In this document: positions 648-9,753 of the stretch, one piece after another
Numbering within the stretch: position 1 is the stretch's first letter
Layout of the letters: the number at the start of each line of letters is the position of its first letter
Origin: Caldinitratiruptor microaerophilus
Lineage (GTDB): Bacteria > Bacillota > Sulfobacillia > Symbiobacteriales > ZC4RG38
DNA length: 64,000 bases
Assembly (NCBI RefSeq): GCF_025999835.1
Contig: NZ_AP025628.1
Location: 248,001 to 312,000, forward strand
Reading direction: 5' to 3'
Notes under the pieces: generated by a model
Seen by the model: the letters and a program-made list of their open reading frames with translations, nothing else
Told to the model about the DNA's origin: nothing
Databases searched by the model: none
Translations under genes and position numbers: made by a program

Positions 648-1388
648 ATGCGCGCGGAGATCCGCATCCTGAGCCTGTACCCGGAGATCCTGAACATCTA
701 CGGCGACCGCGGCAACCTCATCACCCTGGTGCAGCGGGCCCGCTGGCACGGGCTGGAGCCCGTGGTCACCGAGGCGTCCATCGGAGACCCGGTCGACTTC
801 CGGCGGTACGACCTGGTCGCCATCGGCGGCGGGCAGGACAGGGAGCAGAAGCTGATCGCGGCGGACTTCAAGGACGAAAAGGGCCCCTCCCTGGCCGAGG
901 CCGTCCGGGAGGGGGTCGCTGTCCTGGCGGTCTGCGGGGCGTACCAGCTGATGGGCAAGTACTACCGCACGGCCCAGGGCGAGGAGATCCCGGGGCTCGG
1001 GATCTTCGACGCCTGGACCGAGGCCGGGTCCCGCCGGATGATCGGCGACGTCGTGGTGGAGACCGACCTCCTGGGCGGCACCCGCACGCTCGTGGGGTTC
1101 GAGAACCACTCGGGCCGCACGTTCCTGGGCCCGTCGGCGCGCCCCCTTGGCCGGGTCCTGCGGGGTCACGGGAACAACGGCGAGGACGGGCACGAGGGCA
1201 TCGTCCACCGCAGCGCGGTCGGCACCTACCTGCACGGGAGCCTCCTGCCCAAGAACCCCCACCTGGCCGACTGGCTCCTGCAGCGTGCCCTCGACTACCG
1301 GTACGGCGGCTCCGTGCGTCTGGGCCGGCTGGACGACGAGTTCGAGGAGCGGGCCCACGCCGCGATGGTCAGGCGCCTCCTGGGCTAG
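648..1388 (+). CDS. gatD: Lipid II isoglutaminyl synthase, glutaminase subunit GatD
   Basis: 246-residue class I glutamine amidotransferase of the CobB/CobQ type. It hydrolyses glutamine and passes ammonia to MurT for amidation of the peptidoglycan stem peptide. The N-terminus shows the GatD signature LYPEILNIYGDRGN (about residues 10-23). Cys96 in AVCGAYQLMG is the likely nucleophile and His196 in VGTYLHGS the likely catalytic His, close to the positions known for staphylococcal GatD. A GTG eight codons upstream (624) is possible, but the ATG at 648 follows a G-rich ribosome site and fits the family N-terminus. The stop overlaps the stop of the convergent YybS-like gene through a shared CTAG. 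Confidence 0.92.
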   Translation: MRAEIRILSLYPEILNIYGDRGNLITLVQRARWHGLEPVVTEASIGDPVDFRRYDLVAIGGGQDREQKLIAADFKDEKGPSLAEAVREGVAVLAVCGAYQLMGKYYRTAQGEEIPGLGIFDAWTEAGSRRMIGDVVVETDLLGGTRTLVGFENHSGRTFLGPSARPLGRVLRGHGNNGEDGHEGIVHRSAVGTYLHGSLLPKNPHLADWLLQRALDYRYGGSVRLGRLDDEFEERAHAAMVRRLLG

Positions 1389-3784: not shown

Positions 3785-5683
3785 GTGAAGCACCTCATCA
3801 TCGGCACCGCGGGGCACGTCGACCACGGCAAGACGGCGCTGATCCGCGCCCTCACCGGCCAGGACACCGACCGGCTCCCGGAGGAGAAGGCCCGCGGCAT
3901 CTCGATCGACCTCGGGTTCGCCCAGTTCCGCCTGCCGAGCGGCCGGCGGGCGTCGATCATTGACGTGCCCGGCCACGAGCGGTTCATCCGCAACATGCTG
4001 GCCGGGATCACCGGCATCGACCTGGTCCTTCTGGTCGTGGCGGCCGACGAAGGGGTGATGCCCCAGACCCGGGAGCACCTCGACATCCTGCAGCTCCTCG
4101 GCATCAAGCAGGGGGTCGTGGTGCTCACGAAGGTCGACCTCGTCGACGCGGAGCTGCTGGACCTCGTCCGGGAGGACGTCGCCGCCGCCGTGAAGGGGAC
4201 CTTCCTGGAAGGCGCGCCGGTCGTCCCGGTGTCGTCGGTCACCGGCGAGGGGCTGGACCGCCTGGTGCAGATCGTGGACGGCCTGCTGGAGGTCACCGAG
4301 CCCAAGGACGTCACCTCCTTCGCCCGCATGCCGGTCGACCAGGCCTTCGTGCGGCCCGGGTTCGGCACCGTGGTGCGGGGCACCCTGGTGAGCGGCCGGA
4401 TCCGGACGGGAGACCGGCTGGAGCTGCTGCCGCAGGGCCTCGAGGTGCGGGTCCGGGGCCTGCAGGTGCACGGGGAGAAGGTGGAGGTGGCCGAGGCCGG
4501 GCAGCGCGTCGGGGTGAACCTCTCGGGCGTGGAGCGGGCCGAGGTGCGCCGCGGCGATGTCCTCGCCGAGCCCGGCGTGCTGCGGCCGACCGACACCTTC
4601 GCCGGCCGGCTGCACCTGCTCGCCTCCGTCCCGCGCCCCCTGCGGCACGGCGCCCGGGTGCACCTCCACACGGGCGCCAGCGAGGTGACCGGCCGGGTGC
4701 TCCTCCTGGACCGGGACGAGCTGGAGCCGGGCGATTCCGCCTTCATCCAGTTCCGCAGCGAGGCGCCGCTCGTGGTGGGGCGGGGCGACCGCTTCATCAT
4801 CCGCAGCTACTCCCCCGTGCACACGATCGGCGGCGGCGGGGTGATCGAGCCGCACGCCCGTTACCGGCGCCACCACGCGCCCCACCTGGAGGAACTGCGG
4901 GCCAAGGAGACCGGCGGGCGGACGGGGGTCATCGCCGAGACCCTGGCGCGCCGCGGCCCCGTCCCCCTGGCGGAGGCGGAACTCGCACGCCTCATCGGCG
5001 CCCCCGCCGACGTGCTCGCCCCGGACCTTCGCGCGCTCGAGGAGGCCGGCGAGATCCTCGCCCTGGAGGGGGGGTACTGGGTCCACCGGCGCGGGTACGC
5101 GGCTTTCGTGGAGGCCGCGCGGTCGGCCCTCGAGGCGTTCTACCGCCAGTGGCCGCTGCGCCCCGGCCTGCCGAAGGAGGAGCTGCGCCGCAAGGCGGTC
5201 CCCCAGGCGGACGCCCGGGCCTTCGCCGCCGTCCTGGGACGGGCGGTGGCGGCCGGCGAGCTCGTCCTGGACCGGGACCGCGTCCTGCTGCCGGGGCGCG
5301 AGGTGCGTCTCACGCCGGCGCAGGAGTCGCTGGCCCGGTCGCTCGAGGCCGCCGTCCGGGCGGCGGGCTTCAGCCCGCCCTCCGTGGCCGAGCTCAGAGA
5401 CCGCTTCCCCGACGCGCTCACCGAGGAGCTCATCCTCCACCTCCAGGAGGAGGGGCGGGTGGTGCGCCTCCCCGGCGACCTCATCCTCCACGCCGACCAC
5501 CTGCGCGAAGCCCGGGAACGGACCCGGCAGTTCCTGCGTACGCACCCGACCCTCACGGTCGCGGACTTCCGCGATCTGCTCGGGACCACCCGCAAGTACG
5601 CCCTGCCGATCCTCGACCACTTCGACACCCAGCGGTGGACCCGGCGGACGGGCGACGAGCGGGTCGCCGGGCCGCTTCTCTAG
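3785..5683 (+). CDS. selB: Selenocysteine-specific translation elongation factor SelB
   Basis: 632-residue GTPase that delivers selenocysteyl-tRNA(Sec) to ribosomes paused at a UGA followed by a SECIS hairpin. The EF-Tu-like N-terminal half contains the G1 motif GHVDHGKT (residues 10-17), the G3 motif DVPGHE and TKVD as G4, and starts with the family signature IIGTAGHVDHGKT. The last ~180 residues are the winged-helix repeats that bind the mRNA hairpin. The GTG at 3785 sits directly after a GGGAGGAGGAGG site; an upstream extension is open but lacks homology. selA, selD and tRNA(Sec) are not in the window. Its presence means the genome decodes UGA as selenocysteine, which matters for the interrupted AhpD-like frame at 62562-63095. 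Confidence 0.95.
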   Translation: MKHLIIGTAGHVDHGKTALIRALTGQDTDRLPEEKARGISIDLGFAQFRLPSGRRASIIDVPGHERFIRNMLAGITGIDLVLLVVAADEGVMPQTREHLDILQLLGIKQGVVVLTKVDLVDAELLDLVREDVAAAVKGTFLEGAPVVPVSSVTGEGLDRLVQIVDGLLEVTEPKDVTSFARMPVDQAFVRPGFGTVVRGTLVSGRIRTGDRLELLPQGLEVRVRGLQVHGEKVEVAEAGQRVGVNLSGVERAEVRRGDVLAEPGVLRPTDTFAGRLHLLASVPRPLRHGARVHLHTGASEVTGRVLLLDRDELEPGDSAFIQFRSEAPLVVGRGDRFIIRSYSPVHTIGGGGVIEPHARYRRHHAPHLEELRAKETGGRTGVIAETLARRGPVPLAEAELARLIGAPADVLAPDLRALEEAGEILALEGGYWVHRRGYAAFVEAARSALEAFYRQWPLRPGLPKEELRRKAVPQADARAFAAVLGRAVAAGELVLDRDRVLLPGREVRLTPAQESLARSLEAAVRAAGFSPPSVAELRDRFPDALTEELILHLQEEGRVVRLPGDLILHADHLREARERTRQFLRTHPTLTVADFRDLLGTTRKYALPILDHFDTQRWTRRTGDERVAGPLL

Positions 5684-5798
5684 CGTCTCCGGAGCGCTCC
5701 TGGCAGCCGGCAGGGAAACCCGCGGCTGGGGCCGAAGCTCCCTTTAGGCGGGGCGCCGCTCCGCGCGGCAGCCCCTCCGGTGAAGGGGGGCGGGTGCC

Positions 5799-6602
5799 GT
5801 GGCGCGCATCCTCGTGCTGGAGCCGGCGCCGGTCGACCGGGCTCGCATCGCGGGGCTCCTGGAGGCTGCCGGCCACTCGGTGGTCGTCGCGGAGACCGCC
5901 CGCGCCGCCGAGGACCGCCTGGCACGCGAGCCCGCCGGCAGCTTCCAGCTTCTCGTCACGGAGCTGAACCTGCCGGACCGGTCCGGCCTGGAGCTGATCC
6001 GCGCGCTCAAGTCCGCTCCCGCCACGGCGGGGGTGCCCGTACTCGTGGTCACCCCGCAGCCGCCGCGGGAGCTCGTCATCGACCTGATCCTGGCCGGGGC
6101 GGAGAACGTCGTCTCCAAGCCGTTCGCCAGCGAGGTCCTCCTGCGGCGGGTGACCGAGATCCTGGCCGGCCAGCGGCCCTTGCGCCAGTCCCGGCAGGGC
6201 GAGATCTCCTGGTCCCTGCCGGAGTACCTGGAACGGGAGATGAAACGCTCCCTGCGGAGCGGGCTCCCGCTCTCCGTCGTGGTCGCCCTGGCCCGCACGG
6301 CGGACGGCCGCCCGGTACCGGATCTGCTGGCGCTCCTGGTGCAGGCGCTGCGCGTGCGCGACACGGACCTCGTGTTCGGACTCGAAACCGGAGAGGTCGT
6401 GTTCCTTCTCCCGGACACGGACCGGGCAGGCGCACAGGTGGTGGAGGAGCGCATCGCCCGGGCGCTGGCCGGAGGGGGGACGGAGGCCGGATCGGGCGGC
6501 TTGCGCCTCTTCACGGGGACAGCGTCGGCCCCGGCCGACGCCACCACGGCCGGACGGCTGCTGGACATCGCGCTCGAGCGGGCGCGGTCCCGGGCAGGCT
6601 AA
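5799..6602 (+). CDS. Receiver-domain protein with degenerate GGDEF-like C-terminus
   Basis: 267 residues. Residues 1-125 have the response-regulator receiver fold, including the conserved Lys in SKPF near 109. The phosphoacceptor position aligns with Glu55 (TELNLPDRSG), not Asp, and the usual acidic pair is reduced to Glu8, so the domain is probably phosphorylation-independent or mimics the phosphorylated state. Residues ~150-260 have the spacing of a diguanylate-cyclase domain (DTDLVFGLETGEVVFLLPDTD) but lack GGDEF, so cyclase activity is unlikely. The GTG start follows a GAAGGGGGG site. No histidine kinase adjoins it; it sits between selB and the M42 cluster. The 115-bp gap after selB contains GC-rich inverted segments but no recognisable RNA gene. 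Confidence 0.7.
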   Translation: MARILVLEPAPVDRARIAGLLEAAGHSVVVAETARAAEDRLAREPAGSFQLLVTELNLPDRSGLELIRALKSAPATAGVPVLVVTPQPPRELVIDLILAGAENVVSKPFASEVLLRRVTEILAGQRPLRQSRQGEISWSLPEYLEREMKRSLRSGLPLSVVVALARTADGRPVPDLLALLVQALRVRDTDLVFGLETGEVVFLLPDTDRAGAQVVEERIARALAGGGTEAGSGGLRLFTGTASAPADATTAGRLLDIALERARSRAG

Positions 6603-6662
6603 CAGGGGCGGGGACGGCGGACTGCCCGGTGGCCGGGGCGGAACCCGCAGGGGGGTGCAAGG

Positions 6663-7721
6663 TTGGAACTGGCGGACGAGCTGGCCCGGCTTGTGGAGCT
6701 GCCCAGCGTCACGGGCCGGGAGGATGACGTCACGCACTTTCTGCTCGAGGCGTGGGCCGACCGGGTCGACAGCGCCCGGGTGGACCGCGCCGGCAACTAC
6801 GTGGGCCTGCGGCGGGGGAGCCTGCCGGAGGGGTCGCTGCGCGTCCTGGTGGCTGCCCACGTGGACTCGATCGGGATGATGGTGGCGGCGATCGAGCCGG
6901 GCGGGTTCCTGCGCGCCGTGCCGGTCGGGGGCGTGGACGGCCGCTACCTCCTGGGCCTGGAGGTGGTGGTCCACGGCAGGCGGCCGGTGCCGGGGGTGGT
7001 GGGGGCGCGTCCGCCCCACATCACCCGTCCGGAGGAGCGCCGGTCGATCCCCCCGGTCGCCGAGCTGTTCGTCGACACGGGCCTCCCGGAGGGCGAGGTG
7101 CGCGAGCTCGTCGCCCCCGGCGACCCGGTCACCTGGCGCCGGCCGCTCCTGCGGCTCCGGAACGGGCGGGTGGCCGGGCGCAGCCTCGACAACCGGGCGG
7201 GCGTGGCCGCGCTCGGGGTGGTGCTGCGGGAGCTCCGCCACCTGGACCAGGCAGCGGACGTGTACGCGGTGGGGACCGTCGGCGAGGAGTTCGGCGGCAT
7301 GCCCGGCGCCCGGGCGGCGGCGCAGGCCATCCGGCCGCACGTGGCGATCGCCCTGGACGTCACCTTCGGCAGCCACCACGGGGTGACGGACGACCACTTT
7401 CCCCTCGACGGCGGGCCGACCATCATGGTGGGGCCGAACTGCCACCCGGGCCTTGCCCGCTTCCTGCGGGAGGTCGCGTCGGCCGAAGGCATCCCGTACG
7501 CGATGGAGGTCTCTGGCGGCAGCTCGGGTACCGACGCCTGGGTGATGCAGGTGGCGGCGGAGGGGTCGGTGACGGGGGTCGTCTCGATCCCGCTGCGGTA
7601 CATGCACACGCCCGTGGAGGTCGTGAGCCTCTCCGACATCCGGCTGGCCGGGCGCCTGGTGGCGGCCGCCGTGGCCCGGCTCGACGAAGGGATGGTGCGC
7701 GAGTGGACGTCGCTCTCCTGA
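6663..7721 (+). CDS. M42 family aminopeptidase (first of three)
   Basis: 352-residue cocatalytic zinc aminopeptidase/endoglucanase-like protein of the M42 family. These cytosolic enzymes form large tetrahedral (TET-type) assemblies that trim peptides. All expected metal ligands and the general base are visible: His66 and Asp68 (AAHVDS), Asp176 (SLDNRAG), Glu208/Glu209 (GEEFG), Asp232 (ALDVT) and His315 (YMHTPVE). The TTG at 6663 is preceded by a G-rich ribosome site. The gene overlaps the next M42 gene by 19 bp, so the two are translationally coupled. Substrate preference (glutamyl, leucyl or other) cannot be read from the sequence. Confidence 0.88.
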   Translation: MELADELARLVELPSVTGREDDVTHFLLEAWADRVDSARVDRAGNYVGLRRGSLPEGSLRVLVAAHVDSIGMMVAAIEPGGFLRAVPVGGVDGRYLLGLEVVVHGRRPVPGVVGARPPHITRPEERRSIPPVAELFVDTGLPEGEVRELVAPGDPVTWRRPLLRLRNGRVAGRSLDNRAGVAALGVVLRELRHLDQAADVYAVGTVGEEFGGMPGARAAAQAIRPHVAIALDVTFGSHHGVTDDHFPLDGGPTIMVGPNCHPGLARFLREVASAEGIPYAMEVSGGSSGTDAWVMQVAAEGSVTGVVSIPLRYMHTPVEVVSLSDIRLAGRLVAAAVARLDEGMVREWTSLS

Positions 7722-8737
7722 GGGCCCTCTCCGAGGCGCCGGGGGTCTCGGGGCGCGAGGAGGCGGTGCGCGCCGTCCTGCGGGCGTACCTGGAGGGCCA
7801 CGCCGACGAGGTGGCCACCGACCCCCTCGGCAACCTCCTGGTGCGCAAGGGCCGGGGCCCGGTGCGCGTGCTCCTGGACGCCCACATCGACGAGGTGGGC
7901 TTCCTGGTGAGCGGCTTCACCGAGGACGGCCTCCTCCGGTTCAAGACCGTGGGCGGCATCGACGACCGGGTGGTGCCGGGCCGCGCCGTCTGGATCGGGC
8001 CGAACCGGGTCCCGGGGGTGATCGGCCTCAAGGCGATCCATCTGACGGGCGGGGAGCGGGACAAGGCGGTACCGGTCCGGGACCTCTTCATCGACATCGG
8101 GGCCCGCTCCCGGGACGAGGCGGAGTCGGTGGTCGACTACGGCGATCCCGTGGTCTGGGCGACGGAGTTCGAGGAGTGGGGCGGGGCGGTCGTCAAGGGC
8201 AAGGCCCTGGACGATCGCGCCGGCTGCGCCCTCCTGGCCGAGGCGGTGCGGGACTGGTCCGGGGGCTCCCGGGTGACCCTCCTGGCAAGCTTCTCCGCGC
8301 AGGAGGAGATCGGCCTGCGCGGCGCCCGGGTGGCGGCCGAGCGGCTGAAGCCCCACGTGGCCCTGGCGCTCGAGGCCACCTCGTGTGCCGACGTCCCCGG
8401 CGTGCCCCCCGAGGAGTCCGTGACGCGCTTCGGACAGGGGCCGGCGCTCTCGTGGCTCGACGGCACGAACATCGTGCCCGAGCGGCTGCGCGCGCACCTG
8501 GAGGCGCTCGCCTCCCGGGCGGGCATCCCGCTGCAGCACCGCCGCCTGGCCACGGCCGGGACCGACGCCGGGGCGATCCACCTCACCGGGGCCGGCGTGC
8601 CCACCGCGGTGATGGCGTTGCCGGCGCGCTACATCCACAGCGCCGCTTCCCTCGTGCACAAGAGCGACTACGATCACGCGCTCGCGCTGGTCCGGCTGTT
8701 CCTCGACAGCCTGGAGAGAGGAGAGTTCAAGCCTTGA
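7703..8737 (+). CDS. M42 family aminopeptidase (second of three)
   Basis: 344-residue M42 metallopeptidase, paralogous to its upstream neighbour. The ligand set is intact: His61 and Asp63 (DAHIDE), Asp170 (ALDDRAG), Glu201/Glu202 (QEEIG), Glu224 in the ALEATS stretch and a C-terminal His in RYIHSAAS. It starts with GTG at 7703 inside the preceding gene and ends in a TTGA overlap with the third paralogue. The three genes form a tight operon, compatible with hetero-oligomeric TET particles as known for archaeal and thermophile M42 paralogues. Confidence 0.88.
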   Translation: MDVALLRALSEAPGVSGREEAVRAVLRAYLEGHADEVATDPLGNLLVRKGRGPVRVLLDAHIDEVGFLVSGFTEDGLLRFKTVGGIDDRVVPGRAVWIGPNRVPGVIGLKAIHLTGGERDKAVPVRDLFIDIGARSRDEAESVVDYGDPVVWATEFEEWGGAVVKGKALDDRAGCALLAEAVRDWSGGSRVTLLASFSAQEEIGLRGARVAAERLKPHVALALEATSCADVPGVPPEESVTRFGQGPALSWLDGTNIVPERLRAHLEALASRAGIPLQHRRLATAGTDAGAIHLTGAGVPTAVMALPARYIHSAASLVHKSDYDHALALVRLFLDSLERGEFKP

Positions 8738-9753
8738 AGGACCTGCTGGGACAGCTTTCCGGCCTCTGGGGCCCGCCGGGGCGGGAGGAGGCGGTGGCGA
8801 AGGCGCTGGCCGACCTCGTGCGGCCGCACGTGGACGAGGTGCGGACGGACGCGCTCGGCAACGTGCTGGCCGTCCGCCGCGCCGGCAGCGCGCCGGCCCG
8901 GCGGCTCCTCTTGCTGGCCGGGATGGACGGCCCCGGCGGCGTGGTGCTCGACGGCACGGCGGAGGGCTACCTCCGCTTCGCCCCGGTGGGCGGTCTCAGC
9001 CTGGTGGCGGCCCGCGGACAGCGCGTGCGGTTCGCCGACGGGACCGCCGGGGTCGTGGGCGGCGAGCCGGTGGAAGATCCCAAGGACCTGAAGGTGCAGA
9101 ACTCCTGGATCGACATCGGGGCCCGGGACCGGGACGACGCCCTGGCCCGGGTGGCGCCGGGCTCGTTCTTCGCCCTCGACCAGCCGCTCACGGCGATCGG
9201 GGACTGGGTCGCCGGCCCGAACCTGGCGGGCCGGGCCGGCTGCGCGGTGCTCGTCGCCCTGGCCGGGCGGCTCGCCCGGAATCCCGGCCACCGGAACGAG
9301 GTCCACCTGGCGTTCACCGTCCAGGGGACCGTGGCGCCCCGCGGGGCCCGCACCGCGGCCTTCCAGGTACAGCCGGACCTGGCGGTCGTCGTCACGGCCG
9401 CGCCGGACGAGCCCGGCGCCGGGCGGGCGAGAGTCGGACAGGGGCCGGTGCTCCGCCTCCGGGAGGCGGGGTGGGTCCTGCGGGCACCGGCGCGGCGAGA
9501 GCTCGAGGAGGCGGCCCGGACGGCAGGGGTCCGCTGGCAGCCCGAGGTGGCGGAGAAGGGCGCGTCGGACGCGCCCGGCGCCGAGGCGGCCGCCGGGGGT
9601 GTCCCGGTAGCGGTGGCCGGCTACCCCGTCCGGTACCGGGGCACGCCGGCGGAGGTCGTCGCGCCGGCCGACCTGGAGGCGCTGGTCGACTGGCTGGCGG
9701 CCCTGGCGACGGGGACGGCAGGCGCCGCGGCGAGCGCGGCCGCTTCGGCTTGA
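8734..9753 (+). CDS. M42-family pseudoenzyme (third of three, metal ligands lost)
   Basis: 339 residues, collinear with the two upstream M42 peptidases over the whole length (shared DALGNVLAVR, SWIDIGARDRDDA and RAGCAV landmarks). Almost every catalytic residue is replaced: AHxDE has become AGMDG (His to Gly63), LDDRAG has become LAGRAG (Asp to Ala165), the QEE pair is QGT (198-199), the next acidic ligand is Thr221, and the final His aligns with Gly in RYRGTPAE. Only Asp65 remains. The frame is intact, with a GAGAGGAG ribosome site and a TTGA overlap, so this looks like a maintained noncatalytic paralogue rather than a decaying pseudogene. A structural or regulatory subunit of the M42 particle is the simplest inference. 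Confidence 0.8.
   Translation: MKDLLGQLSGLWGPPGREEAVAKALADLVRPHVDEVRTDALGNVLAVRRAGSAPARRLLLLAGMDGPGGVVLDGTAEGYLRFAPVGGLSLVAARGQRVRFADGTAGVVGGEPVEDPKDLKVQNSWIDIGARDRDDALARVAPGSFFALDQPLTAIGDWVAGPNLAGRAGCAVLVALAGRLARNPGHRNEVHLAFTVQGTVAPRGARTAAFQVQPDLAVVVTAAPDEPGAGRARVGQGPVLRLREAGWVLRAPARRELEEAARTAGVRWQPEVAEKGASDAPGAEAAAGGVPVAVAGYPVRYRGTPAEVVAPADLEALVDWLAALATGTAGAAASAAASA

Follow-up and report, generated by a model that had tools for sequence, protein, structure and literature searches.

The window analysed here, a stretch of 64,000 nt, contains three consecutive M42 peptidase genes, and the third encodes a full-length homologue from which the residues used for catalysis have been lost. The locus raises the question of whether this gene is a decaying copy or encodes a protein that is still of use to the cell, and what a peptidase subunit without an active site might do. 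Mixed particles of M42 paralogues have been little tested in bacteria, and a dead subunit in a conserved operon would be a natural experiment that predicts an obligate heteromer and, for the genome of the window, a metal-independent assembly route. No earlier report of a dead M42 subunit was found in the openly available papers; two directly relevant papers lie outside that search.

Locus and gene structure

All coordinates are positions within the window, and all three clustered M42 genes lie on the plus strand. The genome (3.6 Mb, one contig) contains four M42 genes, the fourth of which stands alone. The genes of the cluster and the relevant codons of gene 3 are:

6663..7721, + strand: gene 1, M42 peptidase; PF05343 E 6.6e-73; ligands and catalytic Glu complete (HDEEDH); orthogroup 1
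7703..8737, + strand: gene 2, M42 peptidase; PF05343 E 6.6e-84; ligands complete (HDEEEH), Glu replacing Asp220; orthogroup 2
8734..9753, + strand: gene 3, catalytically dead M42 homologue; 339 aa, TTG start; PF05343 E 4.1e-43
8920..8922, + strand: codon 63, GGG, Gly; metal ligand His60 lost
9226..9228, + strand: codon 165, GCG, Ala; bridging ligand Asp168 lost
9325..9330, + strand: codons 198-199, GGG ACC, Gly-Thr; catalytic-base Glu197 and ligand Glu198 lost
9340..9363, + strand: codons 203-210 (RGARTAAF); dimer-dimer interface segment, by alignment equivalent to PhTET2 R217, R220 and F224
9394..9396, + strand: codon 221, ACG, Thr; ligand Asp220 lost
9640..9642, + strand: codon 303, GGC, Gly; ligand His307 lost

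Genes 1, 2 and 3 match PF05343 over almost the entire profile, gene 3 with a single full-length match to profile positions 1-290 of 292. The GTG start of gene 2 is located within gene 1, giving an overlap of 19 bases, and a 4-base overlap joins the TTG start of gene 3 to the TGA stop of gene 2. An initial sequence-only reading had described a coupled three-gene cluster whose third member is a full-length M42 homologue with intact frame, start and overlap, and this head-to-tail arrangement and the profile match agree with it on each count. The C-terminal tail of gene 3 is alanine-rich and of low complexity. A promoter and terminator scan returned no match. Immediately upstream of the operon, positions 5799-6602 encode a response-regulator receiver domain with a weak GGDEF-like domain.

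The window is rich in G and C and contains spurious antisense open reading frames of more than 1,000 aa. Very long overlapping frames without family evidence, which are expected at high GC content, occur at 5553-7607 (minus strand) and 6752-8737 (plus strand) and call for caution in ORF-based gene calling at this locus. Since a long open frame is by itself weak evidence in such DNA, the case for gene 3 rests on its orthologues and on selection.

Loss of the active site in gene 3

Ligands are numbered as in TmPep1050, the M42 leucine aminopeptidase of Thermotoga maritima. In gene 3, substitutions have removed the five metal ligands as well as the catalytic-base Glu (H60G, D168A, E197G, E198T, D220T and H307G); its product has G63, A165, G198, T199, T221 and G303 at sites occupied by His, Asp, Glu, Glu, Asp or Glu, and His in active M42 enzymes. 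The metal ligand set H-D-E-[ED]-H therefore reads G, A, T, T, G, and Gly198 takes the place of the general-base Glu (E212 of PhTET2), for which the catalytic requirement in the M42 family is established (PMC3511314, PMC8993905). The adjacent Asp65 (D62 in TmPep1050) is retained. The D220 site falls in a gap in one MAFFT alignment, and Thr221 was assigned by manual alignment with the orthologue of a relative from the same family (G001). Alignment and codons together confirm the residue list first proposed for gene 3, including Thr221. Sequencing error is excluded because the six sites require at least about 12 nucleotide changes; these multi-base codon changes, the matching partial losses in relatives and an omega below 1 likewise rule out a pseudogene.

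Conservation of the cluster and distribution of the loss

Loci were sampled from relatives, from the entire class and from a sample of the phylum. Across the phylum, 91 complete gene 1-2-3 triples were collected, one of which comes from the Chloroflexota. Gene 2 and gene 3 overlap by exactly 4 bases in 51 of the 91 and lie no more than 30 bases apart in 79. A tree of all copies resolves three separate orthologue groups, one per gene, with TmPep1050 inside group 3; its few misplaced labels are due to broken contigs or stand-alone copies. The third genes, TmPep1050 included, form one group on a branch supported at 100/100 against the gene 2 outgroup. Among the T. maritima entries of the PDB, 1vho is the best hit for gene 1, 2fvg for gene 2 and 3isx for gene 3. 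The consecutively numbered TM1048, TM1049 and TM1050 of that organism (PMC4517919) appear to be their counterparts, in this order. A scan of a genome collection with short peptides returned a single locus, a triple in a member of the Caldilineaceae (Chloroflexota) with intact ligands. The residue at ligand 220 is Asp in genes 1 and 3 and Glu in gene 2 of almost every genome, a subunit-specific metal ligand signature; Glu for Asp220 is a known M42 variant (PMC7054444).

Ligand loss in the 91 triples is confined to gene 3, with none seen in gene 1 or gene 2 wherever the residues are readable. Thirteen gene 3 copies are dead. In each of the eight genomes that represent the window's order, gene 3 carries Glu197 to Gly and His307 to Gly, and within the window's family the copies of G001 and G002 add Glu198 to Gln. 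Two families neighbouring the order share the loss in part, and catalysis has been lost with different replacements in two further families. In the related genomes G050 and G149, position 197 is Gly, 198 is Ala and 307 is Gly or Arg. Three more families differ from one another at the catalytic Glu: G059 (locus L096) has Ala197 and Gln198, G019 (L085) has Lys197, Phe307 and Gly168, and G045 (L067) has Ser197, Glu220 and Leu307. The relatives within the order lack the catalytic Glu and the last His, and some also lack E198, but they keep H60, D168 and D220, which could retain one metal. An aminopeptidase or endoglucanase annotation of gene 3 is wrong for the whole order. The sequence-only reading had called for an alignment with orthologues to look for conserved loss: loss of catalysis does extend to the entire order, but loss of every ligand is peculiar to the window genome, the most extreme gene 3 of the set.

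Losses were counted on a gene 3 tree from which the ligand columns had been removed. The window's order and G050/G149 form one clade (100/96), which G059 joins at 87/83, and G019 and G045 are placed elsewhere; parsimony yields three losses. A single origin is not rejected by AU tests with gene 3 (p=0.48) or with genes 1 and 2 (p=0.72). The number of losses is accordingly left unsettled, and three independent losses were dropped as a firm claim. Because replacements differ by genome, the dead copies can be arranged as a series from proteins that lack the base and possibly still bind metal to one without any ligand. The sequences show a stepwise loss, with the general-base Glu and the last His lost before Glu198 and then, in the window genome, every ligand. 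They also show that gene 3 descends from an active TmPep1050-type aminopeptidase that was already third in the conserved operon.

Selection on gene 3

Pairwise comparisons indicate that gene 3 is under purifying selection. Two genera were compared by the NG86 method: omega of the dead gene 3 is 0.27-0.31 in the first, where genes 1 and 2 give 0.15-0.24, and 0.28 in the second, where they give 0.10. High third-position GC makes dS uncertain in these comparisons; maximum-likelihood and YN00 estimates are lower still where they converged, and some saturate. The full-length orthologues of the window and G001 are 64% identical for gene 3 and 66% and 67% for genes 1 and 2; since these values are nearly equal, constraint on gene 3 is only mildly relaxed. 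In same-genus pairs, dN of gene 3 reaches about three times that of its partners, and this faster evolution means that some relaxation is present. Conservation among 45 active gene 3 proteins reaches 90% or more at 84 positions; the window copy keeps 53 of these, and the positions lost include all of the ligands and neighbouring active-site positions.

The sequence-only reading had proposed dN/dS as a check on the gene and had named frameshifts or neutral decay in relatives as evidence that would speak against it. NG86 omega is well below 1 in every comparison, and no frameshift was found in the dead copies checked; the copy of G002 is split by a contig end only. A suspected frameshift in gene 3 of G050 was rejected, the difference being a loop insertion near residue 50 that contains a DRKAPA repeat and stays in frame (L072, about 1000-1250, minus strand).

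Dimer-dimer interface and predicted structure

The dimer-dimer interface of PhTET2 involves R217, R220, F224, H248 and I292 (PMC4220976). At these five positions, the gene 3 product of the window has three identical residues (Arg, Arg and Phe) and a conservative Val for Ile292, and H248 cannot be aligned. The equivalent of Arg217, which sits five residues past the lost catalytic Glu, is present in 13/13 dead copies, as are an aromatic residue at 224 and Val or Ile at 292.

An AlphaFold2 monomer model built from 60 sequences (pLDDT 93.9, pTM 0.93; an earlier model from 8 sequences reached pLDDT 74) predicts an M42 fold with the inserted dimerization domain. The model is closest to dodecameric TmPep1050 (4p6y; Z 45.1, rmsd 1.5, 320 aligned residues), and the dimeric and H60A/H307A crystal forms of TmPep1050 score Z of about 36-37. 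This likeness to the dodecamer is weak support for assembly, because prediction may favour a common conformation inherited from training data.

Proposed role and alternatives

The reading favoured here, and considered somewhat probable, is that the gene 3 product, itself non-catalytic, is a subunit of a mixed TET-type M42 particle that also contains the proteins of genes 1 and 2. Its dimers would be built into a tetrahedral particle alongside those of the two active paralogues, which would do the cutting; gene 3 would contribute structure, part of the wall or gate of the chamber, or a set number of silent positions. The full profile match and confident predicted fold, the fixed order 1-2-3, ligand loss in gene 3 only, the order-wide extent of that loss, selection, the kept interface and the existence of M42 heteromers all support such a particle, although a conserved operon does not prove a complex. 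In the window genome, unlike in its relatives, the gene 3 product may fold and assemble without metal, because four carboxylates and two histidines have become small uncharged residues. Metal cofactors reportedly drive the transition of TmPep1050 from dimer to dodecamer, as described by Dutoit in 2019. Assembly of PhTET2 and PhTET3 is likewise metal-dependent (PMC4220976). As the M42 assemblies studied are metal-driven, a subunit without ligands might stay dimeric; gene 3 may thus either assemble free of metal or remain a dimer that modulates assembly.

The known systems resemble this proposal in part. TmPep1050 shares its orthogroup and predicted fold with gene 3, but is an active enzyme with all ligands present (PMC3511314), of which gene 3 has none. 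PhTET2 and PhTET3 are M42 paralogues that form mixed tetrahedral heterododecamers, and the R217, R220 and F224 interface residues match gene 3; however, both archaeal subunits are active and the mixing was achieved in vitro (PMC4220976). YtoP and YsdC, two M42 paralogues of Bacillus subtilis, were crosslinked in one complex in bacterial cells, but the accessible parts of the source present a dimer model only and describe no dead subunit (PMC10090944; PDB 9a5r). ClpR of the ClpP-type proteases, a dead paralogue in a chambered protease (PMC6508832, PMC7966870), serves as a working analogy. It has an unrelated serine protease fold and its incorporation is proven, whereas that of gene 3 is a proposal. 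As expected of a ClpR-like subunit, gene 3 combines conserved catalytic loss with purifying selection and retains inter-dimer interface residues. M42 aminopeptidases of Symbiobacterium thermophilum were reportedly the subject of work by Kumaki in 2011. SthPep1079 and SthPep1080 of that species carry the conserved Glu (PMC3511314), and for this reason are probably genes 1 and 2. The same three-gene cluster is present in G003, whose gene 3 lacks the catalytic Glu.

Gene 3 might instead form its own metal-free dimer or oligomer with a new non-peptidase job, such as peptide or protein binding, without the other subunits. The absence of every ligand in the window copy leaves no peptidase function, the fold is under selection, and the small residues that replace the catalytic cluster might open up a pocket. 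Strict linkage, in overlapping frames, to genes 1 and 2, the kept dimer-dimer interface residues and the scarcity of clade-specific invariant residues besides Gly197, Gly307, Pro165 and Pro201 make this unlikely. Decay is less probable again. A dispensable, slowly decaying relic that persists only because it is the last in a series of overlapping genes would account for progressive active-site loss along the lineage, a dN above that of the partners and the alanine-rich tail, but not for an NG86 omega well below 1 throughout, the 53/84 conserved positions kept or the lack of frameshifts in dead relatives; as the last gene in the cluster, it could also have been lost without harm to genes 1 and 2.

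Metal-driven assembly raises the further prospect that gene 3 is an assembly brake, a locked dimer without metal that caps or titrates gene 1 and gene 2 dimers and holds the peptidase in a low-activity state. TmPep1050 proteins mutated to H60A, H307A or both resemble its dimeric crystal form (306-319 ordered residues versus 330-331 in 4p6y), gene 3 is a natural H60G/H307G double change, and metal-dependent M42 assembly is known (PMC4220976). The predicted model is nevertheless ordered and dodecamer-like, and H60, D168 and D220 persist in the order's remaining dead genes, so that metal may still bind there; a brake is considered improbable, slightly more so than a relic. Continued catalysis through an unusual active site is scarcely credible: Asp65, the D62 equivalent, and Gln197, which precedes the former Glu, are conserved and relatives keep H60, D168 and D220, but the general-base Glu (PMC3511314, PMC8993905) and all ligands are absent from the window copy, and the clade shows no conserved cluster of residues that could stand in as ligands.

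Changes in gene 1

In the window's order and G050/G149, gene 1 has Gln196 replaced with Gly, its Glu pair is followed by one additional residue, and its interface Arg (R217 of PhTET2) is replaced with Pro or Ala. These changes around the catalytic Glu pair are suggestive and may be a counterpart to the loss of activity in gene 3. A more specific and rather doubtful version of the mixed-particle reading would make gene 3 of this clade the metal-free, interface-keeping assembly subunit and gene 1 a catalytic subunit without the interface Arg; the mixed particle would then be obligate, and silent sites would make up a fixed share of it. Gene 1 of G019 also lacks the interface Arg, as does that of some lineages with an active gene 3.
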